Shown: piece after piece, positions 2,853 through 30,940 of the stretch
How the letters are laid out: each line of letters starts with the position of its first letter
How positions within the stretch are numbered: the first letter of the stretch is position 1
NCBI GenBank assembly: GCA_023666615.1
Contig: JAMPBQ010000001.1
Coordinates: forward strand, 30,539 to 79,073
From: Clostridium sp.
Lineage (GTDB): Bacteria > Bacteroidota > Bacteroidia > Bacteroidales > Muribaculaceae
Reading direction: 5' to 3'
DNA length: 48,535 bases
Notes under the pieces: model-generated
The model's input: only the letters and a program-made list of their open reading frames with translations
Database searches by the model: none
Told to the model about the DNA's origin: nothing
Translations under genes and position numbers: made by a program

Positions 2853-3079
2853 CAACGTCAACCAAGTCTGGTACACGCGCCAGCAAAGCCGTTAACGCGG
2901 CTCGAAATCCTTCGGGCTTTTCTTTTGCCCGAATACATACGATATAAGGCGATAGCCTTCTCCACCCATTAAGCATCACGACTTTGTTGTCGGTTTGCCG
3001 GACTTGTTTGACGACATGGAGAGGCCATCGCCTTTTTATGCATAAAAACATAGTCAAACTTCAAACAAGTCCCAATTCA
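2853..3079 (+). promoter_or_regulatory. Structured 5' leader, copy 1 (A-hairpin-B-A'-B'-A'')
   Basis: A non-coding leader ending 7 nt before ATG 3080. Segments: A 2856-2871; conserved GTTAACG block at 2891; hairpin TTCGGGC 2911-2917 with GCCCGAA 2927-2933 (9-nt loop); B 2947-2964; a small hairpin CGAC/GTCG at about 2979-2992; A' 2998-3013; B' 3017-3033; A'' 3061-3072. A pairs with A' over 16 nt with one mismatch and one G-U; B pairs with B' over most of 17 nt; A' pairs instead with A'' over 12 nt perfectly. A/A' and B/B' interleave, forming a pseudoknot. The same order recurs at 11873-12086. Transcription probably starts after AAATTTGCA (about 2846-2854). The ligand or effector is unknown. 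Confidence 0.75.
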
Positions 3080-3421
3080 ATGAAACAATCAACGCTTTTA
3101 CCCATTGCGGACGCGCCGTATGGAGACGGAGTGAAACGCCACCACATTGATGGAATCATTCACCCCGCACCTGATAATTTCCTTAACATTGCGTCTGAAA
3201 TCGGCGCGATGGCGCACAAAGGTCTGCGACTGGCCTTTGGCGAGGGCGCCACTAATGCCGTTCTCGCAGCGATGGCGGCCGTTATGGCCTGGCACTGCGG
3301 AGCTATCTCCGACCCCGTGGCCGGAGGCGCGCAGATAGCCGATGACTGTCTTTGGGCGTCGCCATGGCTAGCAGTCTGGATCTTCCGAGAAATAAAGGAT
3401 GTCTCAAAAACAAGTATATAA
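3080..3421 (+). CDS. Phage protein of unknown function behind structured leader 1
   Basis: A 113-residue protein. ATG at 3080 is chosen because it lies 7 nt after the A'' segment of the leader; the frame stays open further upstream but that part is leader RNA. The N-terminus is polar with HHIDGIIHPAPDN; residues about 50-100 are Ala/Trp-rich and hydrophobic (AVLAAMAAVMAWHC, WASPWLAVWIF), so one or two membrane segments are possible. No family recognised. It stands alone after the leader and is followed by a separate promoter, so its dose is probably set by the leader. Confidence 0.65.
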   Translation: MKQSTLLPIADAPYGDGVKRHHIDGIIHPAPDNFLNIASEIGAMAHKGLRLAFGEGATNAVLAAMAAVMAWHCGAISDPVAGGAQIADDCLWASPWLAVWIFREIKDVSKTSI

Positions 3422-3467
3422 TCACCTTTATACGTTAAATAACACCATACAAATTAAAATTTTTCGC

Positions 3468-3475
3468 TATCTTTG
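3468..3475 (+). promoter_or_regulatory. Promoter -7 box TATCTTTG
   Basis: A perfect Bacteroidetes -7 element TAnnTTTG lies 50 nt before ATG 3526; no clear TTTG is seen 19-21 nt upstream. Together with the following TTGCGAAAGACAA it resembles the promoter and first transcribed bases of leader 2 (11865-11888), but no A' partner follows here. Confidence 0.6.
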
Positions 3476-3525
3476 CATTGCGAAAGACAATACAACAGCC
3501 ACCAACAATAAATAAAGAGAACGAA

Positions 3526-10702: not shown

Positions 10703-10870
10703 TTAATAATCGAACATGTCAAGCAATACGTTGGTTATAACGTGTTTTTCCAGCTCTGATATTTCACCTATTAAATTGCCAAGCCTGGATTTGTCAATGG
10801 TTTTTAGTTGGTCGATTGCCGCATAGCTGTCATTTGCCAACCCGCTTTGGGGCGTTGCCTTAATTAATAC
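10703..10870 (-). pseudogene. mazF-family toxin remnant (C-terminal half only)
   Basis: The - strand frame encodes about 55 residues matching the end of MazF/PemK mRNA interferases: VLIKATPQSGL, then AAIDQLKTIDKSRLG and GEISELEKHVITNVLL. The N-terminal half, with the catalytic core start, is absent. The frame runs across 10870 into sequence that is the antisense of a repeat copied from the end of gene 12269-12544, so the toxin was cut there by recombination. No antitoxin gene adjoins it. The fragment should be inactive as a toxin. Confidence 0.8.
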
Positions 10871-10934
10871 CCCGCCCGACGCCGACCTCCCCGAAAACGA
10901 CACCCCGGCATTCACCATCTGAGCCCTGGGCCTC
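10870..10934 (+). repeat. Direct repeat, copy 1 (65 bp)
   Basis: This segment matches 12492-12556 at 61 of 65 positions. It encodes the tail DADLPENDTPAFTI and stop of gene 12269-12544 plus the start of its terminator region. It abuts the mazF remnant exactly, so it marks a recombination junction. The remaining gene body is absent here. Confidence 0.9.
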
Positions 10935-11058
10935 TGGCCTATTGCTTAATTAACCCAAGATTGAAGGGCCTCCAGGCTCTTTCCTATTTTCCACCGAAAT
11001 TTTTCAGTGAGATTTTTTCTAAAAAAATAAAAAGATAGTAAATTTTATGCCTCTTAAT

Positions 11059-11089
11059 TTTGTTATAAGGATAAAAATTACTACTTTTG
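11059..11089 (+). promoter_or_regulatory. Promoter of hicAB
   Basis: TTTG at 11059-11062, 19-nt spacer, TACTTTTG at 11082-11089: a full match to the Bacteroidetes consensus. Transcription would start near 11096, leaving about 14 nt before the hicA ATG at 11110, which supports that start. Confidence 0.85.
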
Positions 11090-11109
11090 TGATGTCGAAT
11101 CAATACAAG

Positions 11110-11304
11110 ATGAAACGTTACAAAGTAAAAGAGGTCATAAAGATGCTTGAGGCCGATGGTTGGTATCTCTCATGTTGGAAAGGCGACCACCGGCAATTCA
11201 AACATAACGCAAAGAAAGGCCGCGTGACTGTCCCGGGAAAACCGAGCGACACGCTTGAACAAGAGATCTTAAACAGTATTTTCAAACAGGCGGGATGGCG
11301 ATAA
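11110..11304 (+). CDS. hicA: HicA-type toxin, mRNA interferase
   Basis: A 64-residue protein with the double-stranded-RNA-binding-like HicA fold. The family signature is intact: KMLEADGWYL, then KGDHRQFKH with H27 as likely catalytic residue, RVTVPGKP and a C-terminal ILNSIFKQAGW helix. HicA cleaves mRNA until neutralised by HicB. ATG 11110 is preferred over the in-frame ATG at 11092 because the promoter predicts a transcript start near 11096. The antitoxin gene begins 27 nt downstream. In a prophage such pairs usually stabilise the element or block competing phages. Confidence 0.93.
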   Translation: MKRYKVKEVIKMLEADGWYLSCWKGDHRQFKHNAKKGRVTVPGKPSDTLEQEILNSIFKQAGWR

Positions 11305-11331
11305 GCCAAAATGCACAAAAATGATGATAAG

Positions 11332-11742
11332 ATGGAAACAATAAAAGTAGAAGTCTCGTGGAGCGGAAAAAATTATGGGGGCGGCTGGGGATATCCCGAG
11401 GTCGGAGCGATAATAAGTACAGGCAAAACTCTAGAGGAGTTTAAGGATGAATTTGTCTCCGCACTTGAATTTCATGTGAAGGGAATGCTCTCCGATGGTG
11501 ACACTGTGCCACAGTGGCTCGCCGACAAGGACTATAAAATCGAGTACGACCTGAAAGCATCGGCTCTGCTGCGCCAAGCAGAGCGTTTCACCACTATGGC
11601 GGCGCTCAGCCGCGTTACCGGCATAAACCAGCGCCTTCTCTCAAATTATGCCTCAGAGGTGAAGCGTCCCCGTCCGGCTCAGCTTAAGCGCATCGTGGAT
11701 GGCATTCACCAAATTGGGCAAAGTTGCCTCGCGCTATGCTGA
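11332..11742 (+). CDS. hicB: HicB-type antitoxin with DNA-binding end
   Basis: A 136-residue partner of HicA. The N-terminal half is the RNase H-like HicB fold (KVEVSWSGKNYGGGWGYPEV, TGKTLEEFKDEFVSALEFH); the C-terminal half is a helix-turn-helix (MAALSRVTGINQRLLSNYAS) that probably represses the hicAB promoter. ATG 11332 is preferred over 11311 because the homologous region starts at METIKVEV. It is followed by a clear terminator, so the pair forms a two-gene unit. Confidence 0.92.
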   Translation: METIKVEVSWSGKNYGGGWGYPEVGAIISTGKTLEEFKDEFVSALEFHVKGMLSDGDTVPQWLADKDYKIEYDLKASALLRQAERFTTMAALSRVTGINQRLLSNYASEVKRPRPAQLKRIVDGIHQIGQSCLALC

Positions 11743-11793
11743 AAACATGTCAGTGGTGATTTGACGCCCCATTGACATAGGCCCATAGGCCTT

Positions 11794-11831
11794 AATTCCT
11801 TTGAATTCTAAAGTCGAAGGAATTTTTTTTG
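11794..11831 (+). terminator. Terminator of hicAB
   Basis: Stem AATTCCTT (11794-11801) with AAGGAATT (11817-11824), then a run of T to 11830. Confidence 0.8.
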
Positions 11832-11840
11832 CTCAATGTG

Positions 11841-11872
11841 TTTGGTAATACCGAAAATCCATGCTATCTTTG
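11841..11872 (+). promoter_or_regulatory. Promoter of structured leader 2
   Basis: TTTG at 11841-11844, 20-nt spacer, TATCTTTG at 11865-11872. It fits the Bacteroidetes consensus and would start transcription close to the A segment of the leader. Confidence 0.85.
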
Positions 11873-12086
11873 CAGTGCGAAACACAACGATGTTTGTCAT
11901 CGCCGAGGAGTCACGGTTAACGGCTCGAACATATTCGGGCATTTTTTATGCCCTTACATAAAACAAAAACGGCTACGGCTGTCATATCCATACAACTTTT
12001 GGCTCTTCGGAGTGACTACGTTGTTGTGTTTCGCGACGGGATATGGCAGCCGTTTTTCTGTCTGCAAAGCGAAACACAACAACGTA
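11873..12086 (+). promoter_or_regulatory. Structured 5' leader, copy 2 (A-hairpin-B-A'-B'-A'')
   Basis: Same architecture as 2853-3079. A 11877-11889; conserved GTTAACG block at 11916; hairpin GGGCAT/ATGCCC 11937-11953; B 11975-11989; small hairpin CTC/GAG near 12003-12012; A' 12019-12034; B' 12039-12053; A'' 12069-12084, followed two bases later by ATG 12087. B/B' is a 15-bp pairing with one G-U. A/A' pairs over 12-13 nt; A'/A'' is a perfect 16-bp complement. A/A' and B/B' interleave as a pseudoknot and exclude A'/A''. The alternative helix ends right at the start codon, so it should hinder ribosome binding. Confidence 0.8.
11890..11961 (+). CDS. Possible 23-residue leader peptide
   Basis: ATG 11890 directly after segment A opens a frame of 23 codons ending at TAA 11961, spanning the conserved block and the hairpin (LTARTYSGIFYALT at its end). 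The matching frame of leader 1 ends similarly (VNAARNPSGFSFARIHTI, stop 2945-2947) but has no standard start codon, so the likeness may come from RNA conservation only. If translated, the ribosome would disrupt the A segment and hairpin. Confidence 0.3.
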   Translation: MFVIAEESRLTARTYSGIFYALT

Positions 12087-12272
12087 ATGAACAAAAAGAA
12101 ATCACGCCGCGTGGATTCCGAAAAAGTCCGCGGCATTCTCGCGGAACTCGCAGAGGCAATCTGCCTGGCTCAGCGCAAAGTCACCCTCTCTATGCAGGGC
12201 AACACCTTTGAGATCCACCTTGGGGGCGCGTCGGTCAACATCACCGTAAACGAGGAAGGAGGCAGGCTATGA
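12087..12272 (+). CDS. Small phage protein behind structured leader 2
   Basis: A 61-residue protein with a basic start (MNKKKSRRVDSEKVRG), a helix (ILAELAEAICLAQRKV) and a beta-like end (GNTFEIHLGGASVNITVNEEGG). ATG lies 2 nt after segment A'' of the leader, so its translation should depend on leader folding. The stop overlaps the next start by 4 nt, so both proteins are likely co-translated. No family recognised and no resemblance to the gene behind leader 1. Confidence 0.7.
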   Translation: MNKKKSRRVDSEKVRGILAELAEAICLAQRKVTLSMQGNTFEIHLGGASVNITVNEEGGRL

Positions 12273-12544
12273 GAATAATAGCAGCGGGCGCGCAGATCAC
12301 AACCGCCGTAGTGGAAGTGCTGGAGACGCTGCAGGGCCAGCCCGACATTGCCAAGCTTTACATCGGCGCCATCGACTCCATCACACGCGCGGCCATCGAG
12401 GGATTTTCTGGCAATGACGAGCGCGACGCCGAAACCCTCTCAATCCTGCGCGCCCTGCAGATGATGCGCCGCGACATCGAGGCGCTGGCCTCCCCGTCCG
12501 ACGCCGATCTCCCCGAAAACGACACCCCCGCATTCACCATCTGA
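12269..12544 (+). CDS. Small phage protein, partner of 12087-12272
   Basis: A 91-residue acidic, mostly helical protein, starting in an ATGA overlap with the preceding gene. Helices at about 8-22 (TTAVVEVLETLQGQ) and 45-75 (DERDAETLSILRALQMMRRD); the end DADLPENDTPAFTI recurs as a fragment at 10870. No family recognised. It shares the leader-controlled transcript with its neighbour and is followed by a terminator. Confidence 0.7.
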   Translation: MRIIAAGAQITTAVVEVLETLQGQPDIAKLYIGAIDSITRAAIEGFSGNDERDAETLSILRALQMMRRDIEALASPSDADLPENDTPAFTI

Positions 12545-12556
12545 GCCCTGCGCCTC
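12492..12556 (+). repeat. Direct repeat, copy 2 (65 bp)
   Basis: End of gene 12269-12544 and start of its terminator; matches 10870-10934 at 61 of 65 positions. The two copies bracket hicAB, leader 2 and the two small genes. Confidence 0.9.
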
Positions 12557-29365: not shown

Positions 29366-30940
29366 TCAAGGATCCATATTGTTGAGATAGTCCTGAAGGG
29401 GAATTGATGATGCCTTGGGGCTATTGTATGGAGTGCGTCTCGCCTTTTTCTTCTTTGAGAGCTTAGCGTGAGTTACGATGTTCGTGAATTTTCTGGAGGC
29501 CTTTAGCTTCGGTCCCCATTTATTTATAATGGATTTGCGGTCCACTTTGTTCATGTCATCGTAAAGGCCTTTCAGCGCCGGGAATTTCTCCATCTCGGAT
29601 TTTTTCCATGTTGAGTTTTTGTCCAGATAGGCGATGGCGGCGTTCAGGTCATTTTCAGGCTTGGCGGCGGGAATGGCCTGTTCCGGCTTGGGCTCTTCTG
29701 GTTTGGGTTGTGCGGTAGTTTCCGCCGGCGCCGGTTCCTCGGCCACAACCGTGGGTTGAGGCTCCGCGGTTTGGCTTTCTGTGGCGGAGATTATGGCTTC
29801 GGCCACAGCCCCGGGTGAGGACGATTCTTGTGATTGTTCAATAGGCTGCTGCGCGTGGGGAGTCTCTATCGGTTCATCTTCCCTTCCGCATGTGAACATT
29901 AAAGTAACGGCAACGCCCAGAAGGAAACCTCCGGCGGCATACAGCGCCTTATTAATGGCATCGGAATATTTGTCAAAGAATGATTCTGAATCCTCTTCGC
30001 GGTTGTCGGTTTCGTATTCCGTGATTTCGGTCTCCGGCTCATCCTCTACTGCATACGCATGTCTGCGCTTCTCTGGCTTTTCCTCCTTTGCTTCCTCGGT
30101 CGCTTTGTCTACTGGCTTATCTGACAAGACTCTAACCGGACGAGTGTACTCTTCAAAGTCCGGAGCCTGCATTTCGGATTTGCTCACCGTAACGGGCTGC
30201 TTCACGTTTGGCGCGCCGGGCTTGGTCCAGATAATGTCGAAAGTGCGGTCCATAGGGGCAAGATACGGAACGTCAAATGGGCATGTGTAAATCGTAGGCT
30301 TGTAGCCATCCGCTTTTGACGTGTCTGGAGGAAGGAGGGTTGCCATGGTCTCCTTGGGGGCCGAAGTGAGGTTTGTGCCCGATACATTGTCGGAAATGGA
30401 GGAATCCACCAGCAGAACGCCGGCAAAAGGCAGATAGCATGCCTGATAGCGGAATCTTCCGATAAGGTCGGCAAGCGACGCGCCCGTGTTTCCGCCATAA
30501 TACCTATATGCGTAAGCTTTACCGTGGGAAGGCGCGAAAATTGGCGCAAGCGGATTGTCCTCATATTCGTGATTGAAGAGCTGGCGTATTTCTCCAAACA
30601 CCTGGTTGGTGAGTGAATGCCCCGCAACCTTCTCCGCCACGAAATCAACCGTCGAAACAAGGTCCTTGTCGGAGATCATGCAAGAATAGGGGGCGAATAT
30701 CCAAGCCGCAAGGTAATTGCCGATGACATCGGGGATTGTGCGCAGGATGATGATGAAAACGCCTGTCTCCGTGTACTTCATCAAATAAAAAATGTTTTTT
30801 GATGAAGCTTGGTAGTCGACCTGGCAAACCGCGCCGCGCAGATCGCCCACCAAGGCCTTGACCTCTGGCTGGGCGTTAATTTCCACAACGTTGCGGAAGT
30901 CGCCTTTCGACATTGTTATGTATAGCTGAAGCTTATTCAT
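29366..30940 (-). CDS. Bitopic membrane protein with acidic/proline-rich linkers
   Basis: A 524-residue protein. Residues 1-240 form a globular cytoplasmic-type domain (YLMKYTETGVFIIILRTIPD). An acidic linker (about 260-330) precedes one membrane helix near 335-352 (ALYAAGGFLLGVAVTLMF), then a Pro/Glu/Ala-rich linker (TTAQPKPEEPKPEQAIPA) and a basic C-terminal domain (NSTWKKSEMEKFPALKGLYDD). This layout resembles bacterial regulators or division-associated anchors that span the inner membrane, but I recognise no family. A consensus promoter lies just upstream. Confidence 0.8.
   Translation of the reverse strand: MNKLQLYITMSKGDFRNVVEINAQPEVKALVGDLRGAVCQVDYQASSKNIFYLMKYTETGVFIIILRTIPDVIGNYLAAWIFAPYSCMISDKDLVSTVDFVAEKVAGHSLTNQVFGEIRQLFNHEYEDNPLAPIFAPSHGKAYAYRYYGGNTGASLADLIGRFRYQACYLPFAGVLLVDSSISDNVSGTNLTSAPKETMATLLPPDTSKADGYKPTIYTCPFDVPYLAPMDRTFDIIWTKPGAPNVKQPVTVSKSEMQAPDFEEYTRPVRVLSDKPVDKATEEAKEEKPEKRRHAYAVEDEPETEITEYETDNREEDSESFFDKYSDAINKALYAAGGFLLGVAVTLMFTCGREDEPIETPHAQQPIEQSQESSSPGAVAEAIISATESQTAEPQPTVVAEEPAPAETTAQPKPEEPKPEQAIPAAKPENDLNAAIAYLDKNSTWKKSEMEKFPALKGLYDDMNKVDRKSIINKWGPKLKASRKFTNIVTHAKLSKKKKARRTPYNSPKASSIPLQDYLNNMDP

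Follow-up and report, generated by a model that had tools for sequence, protein, structure and literature searches.

A possible self-antisense RNA switch of P4/c4-like layout in leaders of gut Bacteroidales prophages

Why would the leader of a short prophage gene carry one address three times, twice forward and once as its mirror image? The question was raised by leader 2 of a 48,535-nucleotide stretch of DNA (hereafter the window; positions 30,539 to 79,073 of contig JAMPBQ010000001.1), which belongs to a genome of the family Muribaculaceae. The address is present as segments A, A' and A'', and two further segments, B and B', pair with each other. We propose, at a probability of about 0.42, that such leaders are P4/c4-like self-antisense RNA switches placed before prophage cargo operons.

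Leader 2 extends from 11877 to 12086 on the plus strand and is directly followed by an ATG at 12087. We observed that A, a hairpin, B, A', B' and A'' all lie where the initial annotation had put them. A (11877-11892) forms the start of the predicted transcript and pairs with the antisense segment A' (12017-12034; duplex -23.6), which is also complementary to A'' (12069-12086). A'' is a second copy of A that abuts the start codon, and these two copies form near-direct repeats separated by about 190 bp. The pairing of A' with A'' is perfect, as had been claimed; its length in an inverted-repeat search is 18 bp and not the 16 bp given initially. B (11975-11989) and B' (12039-12053) form a helix of 15 bp with one G-U pair, in agreement with the annotation (duplex -26.2 kcal/mol), and together with the U run that follows B' (12039-12057) this helix is terminator-like. 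Leader 2 folded at -85.6 kcal/mol as compared to a mean of -60.8 kcal/mol for shuffled sequences (z -5.66), and none of 200 shuffles was as good. Elsewhere in its own genome, the address of leader 2 was found at one place (with two mismatches), while a reversed control pattern was found at three.

Several smaller elements lie between these segments. H1 (11888-11902) is a small hairpin 3' of A whose 5' arm overlaps the end of A; its arms differ in sequence but pair in the relatives (by eye, uncounted). H2 (11908-11926), with a conserved CGGTTAA loop, is seen from alignment covariation, and its inner pair (alignment columns 58/68) shows double changes in 16 of 36 leaders. T1 (11923-11947), where a U run comes after a terminator-like hairpin, is in competition with H2 and H3, and a terminator scan listed it at 11923-11940. 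H3 (11937-11953) is the hairpin of the initial annotation; alignment and folding give it the form GGGC, a U-rich loop and GCCC. H4 (12003-12012), an CTCTTCGGAG hairpin between B and A', is recognized by conservation and folding. The same scanner also reported a match at 12020-12050, but this is a different pairing, as it considers loops of 3-8 only and the B:B' loop is long. We also evaluated segment C (CTGTC, 12058-12062), which may pair weakly with the GGCAG of B'. A B':C stem of at least 5 could be formed by 41 of the 46 leaders, but 64% of non-cognate combinations gave one too; its specificity was weak, the leader 2 folds did not favour it, and this pairing was rejected.

A promoter of the Bacteroidetes type, for which we take the consensus to be TTTG, about 19-20 bp and TAnnTTTG, is predicted just upstream (11841-11872, plus strand), with TTTG at 11841-11844, a 20 bp spacer and TATCTTTG at 11865-11872. 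A begins at the transcription start expected from this promoter. The pattern TTG-N18-24-TAnn(T/C)TTG, which leader 2 fits, was present in 39 of 47 leaders and in 1% of shuffles. Leader 1 of the window and the copies L169 and L174 carry an GAAATTTG variant and fall outside this pattern. A promoter and 5' end (GCTATCTTTGCATTGCGAAAGACAA) nearly identical to those of leader 2 also lie at 3466-3525 of the window, ahead of another gene.

Of 397 genomes of the host family, 39 had matches in a BLAST search with the leader 2 core (E up to 0.001); 12 of these 39 had two matches, 11 of the 12 on one contig. In the host genome itself leaders 1 and 2 are the sole clear copies, the next model match having an E of 0.097. 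Across the order, a covariance model (E up to 0.001) found 24 places in 19 of 393 genomes. The three-fold address could be read by eye in 7 of the 393, the own genome included; the other six are G748, G398, G703, G538, G576 and G415. This reading covered 12 of the 22 model places outside the own genome; in nine of the ten others a repeat scan, which also missed real copies, gave no or weak repeats. By eye, G779 and G758 kept the core and lacked the full triple, and L185, L190 and L196 appeared to be chance matches. The leader was also present on the gut phage contigs MT836345.1 and MT836146.1 and in a metagenome-assembled genome labelled Barnesiella (L026), whose match and score are the same as those of the G031 copies L126 and L159. 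Core-pattern scans of viral and genome contigs gave mostly chance hits: in seven of 21 loci read by eye only L026 was genuine, the rest of the 21 and 84 more from another scan being judged by one regular expression.

Altogether 49 distinct places were gathered, and 46 of them were used for counting. The three left out were leader 1 (which failed the promoter pattern and was treated apart), L141 (whose 5' half is absent) and L166_p1822 (wrongly segmented; by eye it keeps A:A' and its A'' hardly matches). Two of the 46 leaders share one A', so that 45 distinct ones entered the comparison of own with other partners. L163 and L164 of G391 lie about 40 kb apart on one contig with equal score; they were merged as a single core, and their addresses are not distinct.

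The initial annotation had inferred compensatory change with the pairings kept from the two leaders of the window, and we observed that this holds in the 46 usable relatives. The covariation check that it had proposed gave 295 double-change cells in A':A'', as compared to a mean of 90 and a maximum of 119 in 500 shuffles. Over 18 positions 93.2% of the A':A'' cells were paired, with double changes at every pair; sliding the partner by 1-3 positions lowered pairing to 34-38%. For B:B', 95.8% of cells were paired, with 74 double-change cells. RNAalifold on the MAFFT alignment (A1, which ends before A'') did not include the A helices, and their pair counts were made by script from registered helices. 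The blocks GTTAACG, GCTCGAA and TTCGGGC, described as nearly constant between the two window leaders, do recur in close relatives and drift in distant ones.

Since A' and A'' had been selected by their pairing, a search of shuffled leaders and pairing with other leaders were needed as controls. The stem search gave a mean of 17.6 for real leaders, as compared to a mean of 6.4 and a maximum of 11.5 for dinucleotide-shuffled ones (n=184); the weakest real leader, L138 (9.5), lies within the shuffled range. Among the 45 distinct leaders A' paired with its own A'' at a mean of -27.4 kcal/mol and with those of other leaders at -8.4, and the corresponding values for A were -23.0 and -8.7. The own partner was the best one in 45 of 45 cases for A':A'' and in 42 of 45 for A:A'. 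When the A' of others was given an equal choice of window, A:A' reached -10.4 as compared to -22.9 for the own partner, and none of 552 combinations attained the own median. G-U pairs outnumbered C-A mismatches in each helix (17:2 in A':A'', 30:8 in B:B', 29:4 in A:A' with n=45), which speaks for pairing in plus-strand RNA and not for a DNA repeat, although these ratios are somewhat biased since the helix choice scored G-U above C-A. As judged by this comparison, the leaders preserve, in the presumed plus-strand RNA, the complementarity of A' to A as well as to A'', and that between B and B'.

The address itself is variable. Sequence identity was 0.73 for B and 0.39 for A' (positions 6-17). 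In four pairs of cassettes on the same contig, the genes were 99%, 96%, 93% and 86% identical over 180 nt, with A' identities of 58%, 71%, 65% and 50%; the leader cores of these pairs were 83%, 76%, 72% and 81% identical (values given without a random baseline). Such near-identical genes with different A addresses would fit a change of address, and also a plain recombination of whole leaders. We also considered whether leaders of one genome avoid cross-talk. This idea found no support, as cross-pairing was not reduced within genomes and was even slightly stronger there than between genomes (-10.9 and -8.4; n=24 and 2046; hand-mapped genomes, minus the own genome and G011, each of which had one leader dropped).

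Folding of the growing RNA of leader 2 predicted T1 (0.89), followed by H3 (0.99) and T1 again. A:A' was predicted at a probability of 1.00 for RNA ends from 12036 to 12080, and once A'' was complete (end 12087) the fold switched to A':A'' (0.88). At the U run after B', A:A' exceeded 0.5 in 45 of the 46 leaders and B:B' in one, and B:B' exceeded 0.5 in all 46 when A was made unavailable; nested folding excludes pseudoknots, so that A:A' and B:B' are exclusive by construction and the prediction has a built-in bias. A pseudoknot with both helices together looks sterically possible. In the full-length RNA A':A'' exceeded 0.5 in 35 of 46 leaders, and A:A' was the best fold in 10 of 46. G-U pairs are fewer in A'':A' (25 of 821) than in A:A' (74 of 762), which suggests that A'' is the stronger partner of A'.

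These predictions suggest the following order of events. The RNA would be started by a host-type promoter, with A as its first bases, and A would pair with A' as soon as A' is made. By excluding B:B' with its U run, A:A' is predicted to let RNA polymerase pass. Once A'' emerges, it should take the place of A in most of the leaders, and the helix A':A'' would then cover the start codon of the first short ORF, with a second ORF often close behind. A would thus be the antiterminator, A' the exchanged strand and A'' the lock on the start codon. In a further step that we infer, A would be occupied by the A' of another leader RNA, terminated earlier, so that B:B' forms and transcription stops. A resident prophage would in this way silence copies with the same address, comparable to P4 CI and to c4 of P1/P7. 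The wider idea that these are addressable silencing RNAs of phages, with a rewritable address of 15-18 nt carried by each cassette in three registered copies, terminated leaders that draw leaders of the same address into termination as a self-propagating switch, and heteroimmunity between cargo cassettes, is tentative and we think it unlikely. As folded, the terminated RNA left the A' segment exposed to a moderate degree only (0.48, and 0.41 elsewhere; above 0.5 in 18 of 46 leaders), which, like the unreduced cross-pairing within genomes, would count against a strong role in trans.

The trans step is not needed if the leader is metastable and acts in cis only. In this case A:A' would give a brief window for translation, which would close when A is displaced by A'', so that the mRNA silences itself in the manner of latent toxin mRNAs. 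The predicted order of A:A' followed by A':A'' and the larger share of G-U pairs in A:A' agree with this explanation, as do several first ORFs that resemble small membrane proteins (by eye), and we regard it as a serious possibility, if one at less than even odds. However, it leaves the conserved B:B' helix with its U run unexplained, as well as the faster change of the A address (0.39) as compared to the equally paired B (0.73).

That the leader senses a ligand or protein through the CGGUUAA loop of H2, the U-rich loop of H3 and H4, with the A and B helices as expression platform, appears improbable. The positions in these loops rank with the most conserved ones, but a compact conserved aptamer was not seen, T1, H2 and H3 resemble an ordinary attenuator, and Rfam gave no match. 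Even less probable, in our view, is a processive antitermination RNA of the kind known from put-type RNA, which would alter RNA polymerase and let it transcribe cargo or late genes past terminators: it would account for the two matches in 12 of 39 family genomes (11 on one contig) and for the terminase-, tape-measure- and head-protease-like genes near many loci, but has no use for a three-fold address or for its abutment on the start codon. A mobile element with A and A'' as target duplication and A' as guide would explain near-direct repeats flanking about 190 bp, but is hardly credible given that the G-U bias points to RNA pairing and that positions in the late region recur.

Copies with lost pairings, which the initial annotation had named as evidence against its proposal, do exist beside the 46 usable leaders that keep them. 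Leader 1 (2856-3079, plus strand) has the segment order of leader 2, while its A and B differ in sequence; its segments are A 2856-2871, B 2947-2964, A' 2998-3013, B' 3017-3033 and A'' 3052-3072, followed by an ORF of 113 aa (3080-3421, plus strand, ATG at 3080). Its three pairings were found as claimed, but imperfect, with a mismatch and a bulge in B:B', a mismatch in A:A' and an insert that interrupts A''. Because of this insert A':A'' is weaker (-17.9), and in the full leader 1 RNA A:A' is the predicted winner (0.76, and 0.13 for A':A''). The A segments of leaders 1 and 2 cross-pair negligibly (-3.0, -3.6 and -5.0 in the three combinations computed). Further such copies are the counterpart of leader 1 in L166, whose A'' hardly matches (by eye), L182 without a matching A'', L195 (the second copy in G748) without A, and L141 without its 5' half. 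A partial self-repeat is inserted in the A'' of the leader-1-type copies (window 3052-3072, L169 2124-2362 and L174 2117-2352).

The annotation had also described the leader as a moving cassette. This was borne out, since the genes behind it belong to several unrelated families, and near-identical genes on one contig follow different A addresses. By eye, the downstream genes group into a small number of families that recur. Most leaders are followed by a short first ORF, its ATG lying at most 7 bases after A'' or overlapping the last two bases of A''. Behind leader 2 a small ORF of 61 aa ending in EGGRL (12087-12272, plus strand, with AAGGAGG at 12256-12262) is followed by a second of 91 aa (12269-12544, plus strand), with 4 nt of overlap at the stop of the first. 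Neither a closely following second ORF nor the terminator-like step of B:B' with its U run is part of the initial annotation. GG occurs within the last nine residues of the first ORF in 30 of 45 cases (in DNA mostly AAGGAGG or similar), and the second start lies -20 to +18 from the first stop in 31 of 45, mostly as a 4-nt overlap (both counted without a random control). Such a Shine-Dalgarno-like end with a close second start suggests a second gene that relies on the first being translated. Shine-Dalgarno sequences are reported to be generally lacking in Bacteroidetes (PMC6847099). AAGGAGG-type Shine-Dalgarno sequences at the ends of many first ORFs, in the window and in relatives, are a notable feature for this phylum. 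A leader peptide was rejected as a candidate, as an ORF is present within leader 2 but its frame is lost in the relatives (by eye).

Of ten ORFs behind leaders that were compared with Pfam, nine gave no match; the tenth, a Rha/antirepressor gene, is driven by the leader of L136. The ORFs directly behind both window leaders matched no Pfam family. A structure prediction of the first-ORF product with nine sequences had a mean pLDDT of 82.3 and gave no PDB match at E ≤ 0.001. PADLOC matched three of ten proteins tested. Models of AbiJ, PD-Lambda-5, PDC-S48 and a DNA methyltransferase match genes near leaders, i.e. cargo of the defence type (L214 8340-9128, L200 11137-12267, L212 8929-9774, L215 7035-8099).

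In the window leader 1 follows a terminase gene and leader 2 precedes a tape-measure gene, with a lysozyme gene also nearby. Among 26 long context loci, 12 had a terminase-like cluster, which lay upstream of the nearest leader in 8 loci and downstream of it in 4. A tape-measure-like cluster, so labelled from similarity to the gene of the window, was present in 8 (0.6-1.5 kb downstream of the leader in 6 of them), and 7 had a head-protease cluster, which was downstream in 6. Without exception, all three shared the strand of the leader closest to them.

The ORF at 11311-11742 of the window gave a weak HicB-like antitoxin match (under the Pfam cut-off), and genes like it were present in 13 of the 26 loci. 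In the window this concerns 11047-11742, and the 13 loci are L157, L161, L162, L166, L199, L200, L202, L205, L207, L210, L212, L214 and L217; of the 14 genes, 11 lie no more than 5 kb upstream of the closest leader, and each of the 14 is on the strand of that leader. A second small gene cluster in 9 of the 26 loci is presumably HicA. A stretch of 65 nt at the end of the second small ORF (12492-12556) is repeated with 94% identity at 10870-10934, upstream of the HicAB-like pair. From its sequence this repeat looks as if the cassette had been duplicated or the HicAB-like pair had been inserted by recombination.

If the self-antisense reading is true, gut Bacteroidales prophages would have an RNA switch that is widespread and takes its specificity from an address free to change. 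It would be an analogue of P4/c4 immunity in a group for which searches of the open PMC literature gave no such phage RNA, and could serve as a simple source of orthogonal regulators for Bacteroides genetics and as a handle on the timing of prophage cargo expression. On a modest reading too, it is a new structured RNA family, known from 49 distinct places.

How does this leader compare with known systems? At the gathering score Rfam had no match at leader 2 or in 20 related loci (the window matches being two tRNAs elsewhere), and this includes the Bacteroidales motifs, e.g. Bacteroidales-1 and Bacteroides-1. A permissive scan of 11700-12300 gave only sub-threshold microRNA families and AgvB, and no c4 (RF01695). 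In the table of PMC2864571, Bacteroides-2 and the GUCCY-hairpin are listed without an Rfam number; the comparison covered motifs that have one. In the open PMC literature, searched by titles and the beginnings of abstracts, no description of such a leader was recognized.

A close likeness is to the P4 immunity leader, in which the CI RNA pairs with seqA and seqC and ends transcription (PMC4825925). As described there, one antisense segment is complementary to sites up- and downstream within the leader, the layout seqA, CI RNA, seqC has the order of A, A' and A'' (compared by layout, not by sequence), and the P4 leader is linked to premature termination, as is predicted here. It differs in that the leaders studied here lie in the late prophage region (terminase, tape-measure, lysozyme) and not in a satellite before replication genes, and that they add B:B' and occlusion of the start codon. 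In the P4 system a stable short RNA, produced by processing or termination, causes termination in trans; for the leaders here such an action would be by analogy and from fold predictions. The c4 RNA of P1/P7 blocks translation of an antirepressor and sets heteroimmunity by its sequence (PMC12197685). The likeness lies in an antisense RNA located about the site where translation of a phage gene begins, and the relative L136 drives a Rha/antirepressor gene. As for its layout, c4 is part of the leader of the gene that it targets, works by way of a coupled first ORF (icd) and has two boxes; it is not known to have an upstream copy of the A kind. In contrast, the leader here has one address, A', together with the upstream copy A, and no match to RF01695.

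The IsrK-orf45-anrP region of Gifsy-1 (PMC4825925, PMC12197685) is similar in that a prophage RNA carries a short ORF coupled to an effector gene. IsrK is also active as a separate small RNA, and the leader here has no Rfam match. In trp-type attenuators and hok-type latent mRNAs, mutually exclusive helices form in order during transcription, and the helices of these leaders would arise successively in the same manner. They differ from both in having no conserved leader peptide (by eye) and a three-fold address that is rewritten between close relatives. Together, these comparisons have led us to conclude that the leader would work like a P4/c4-type self-antisense leader and is a member of neither family.
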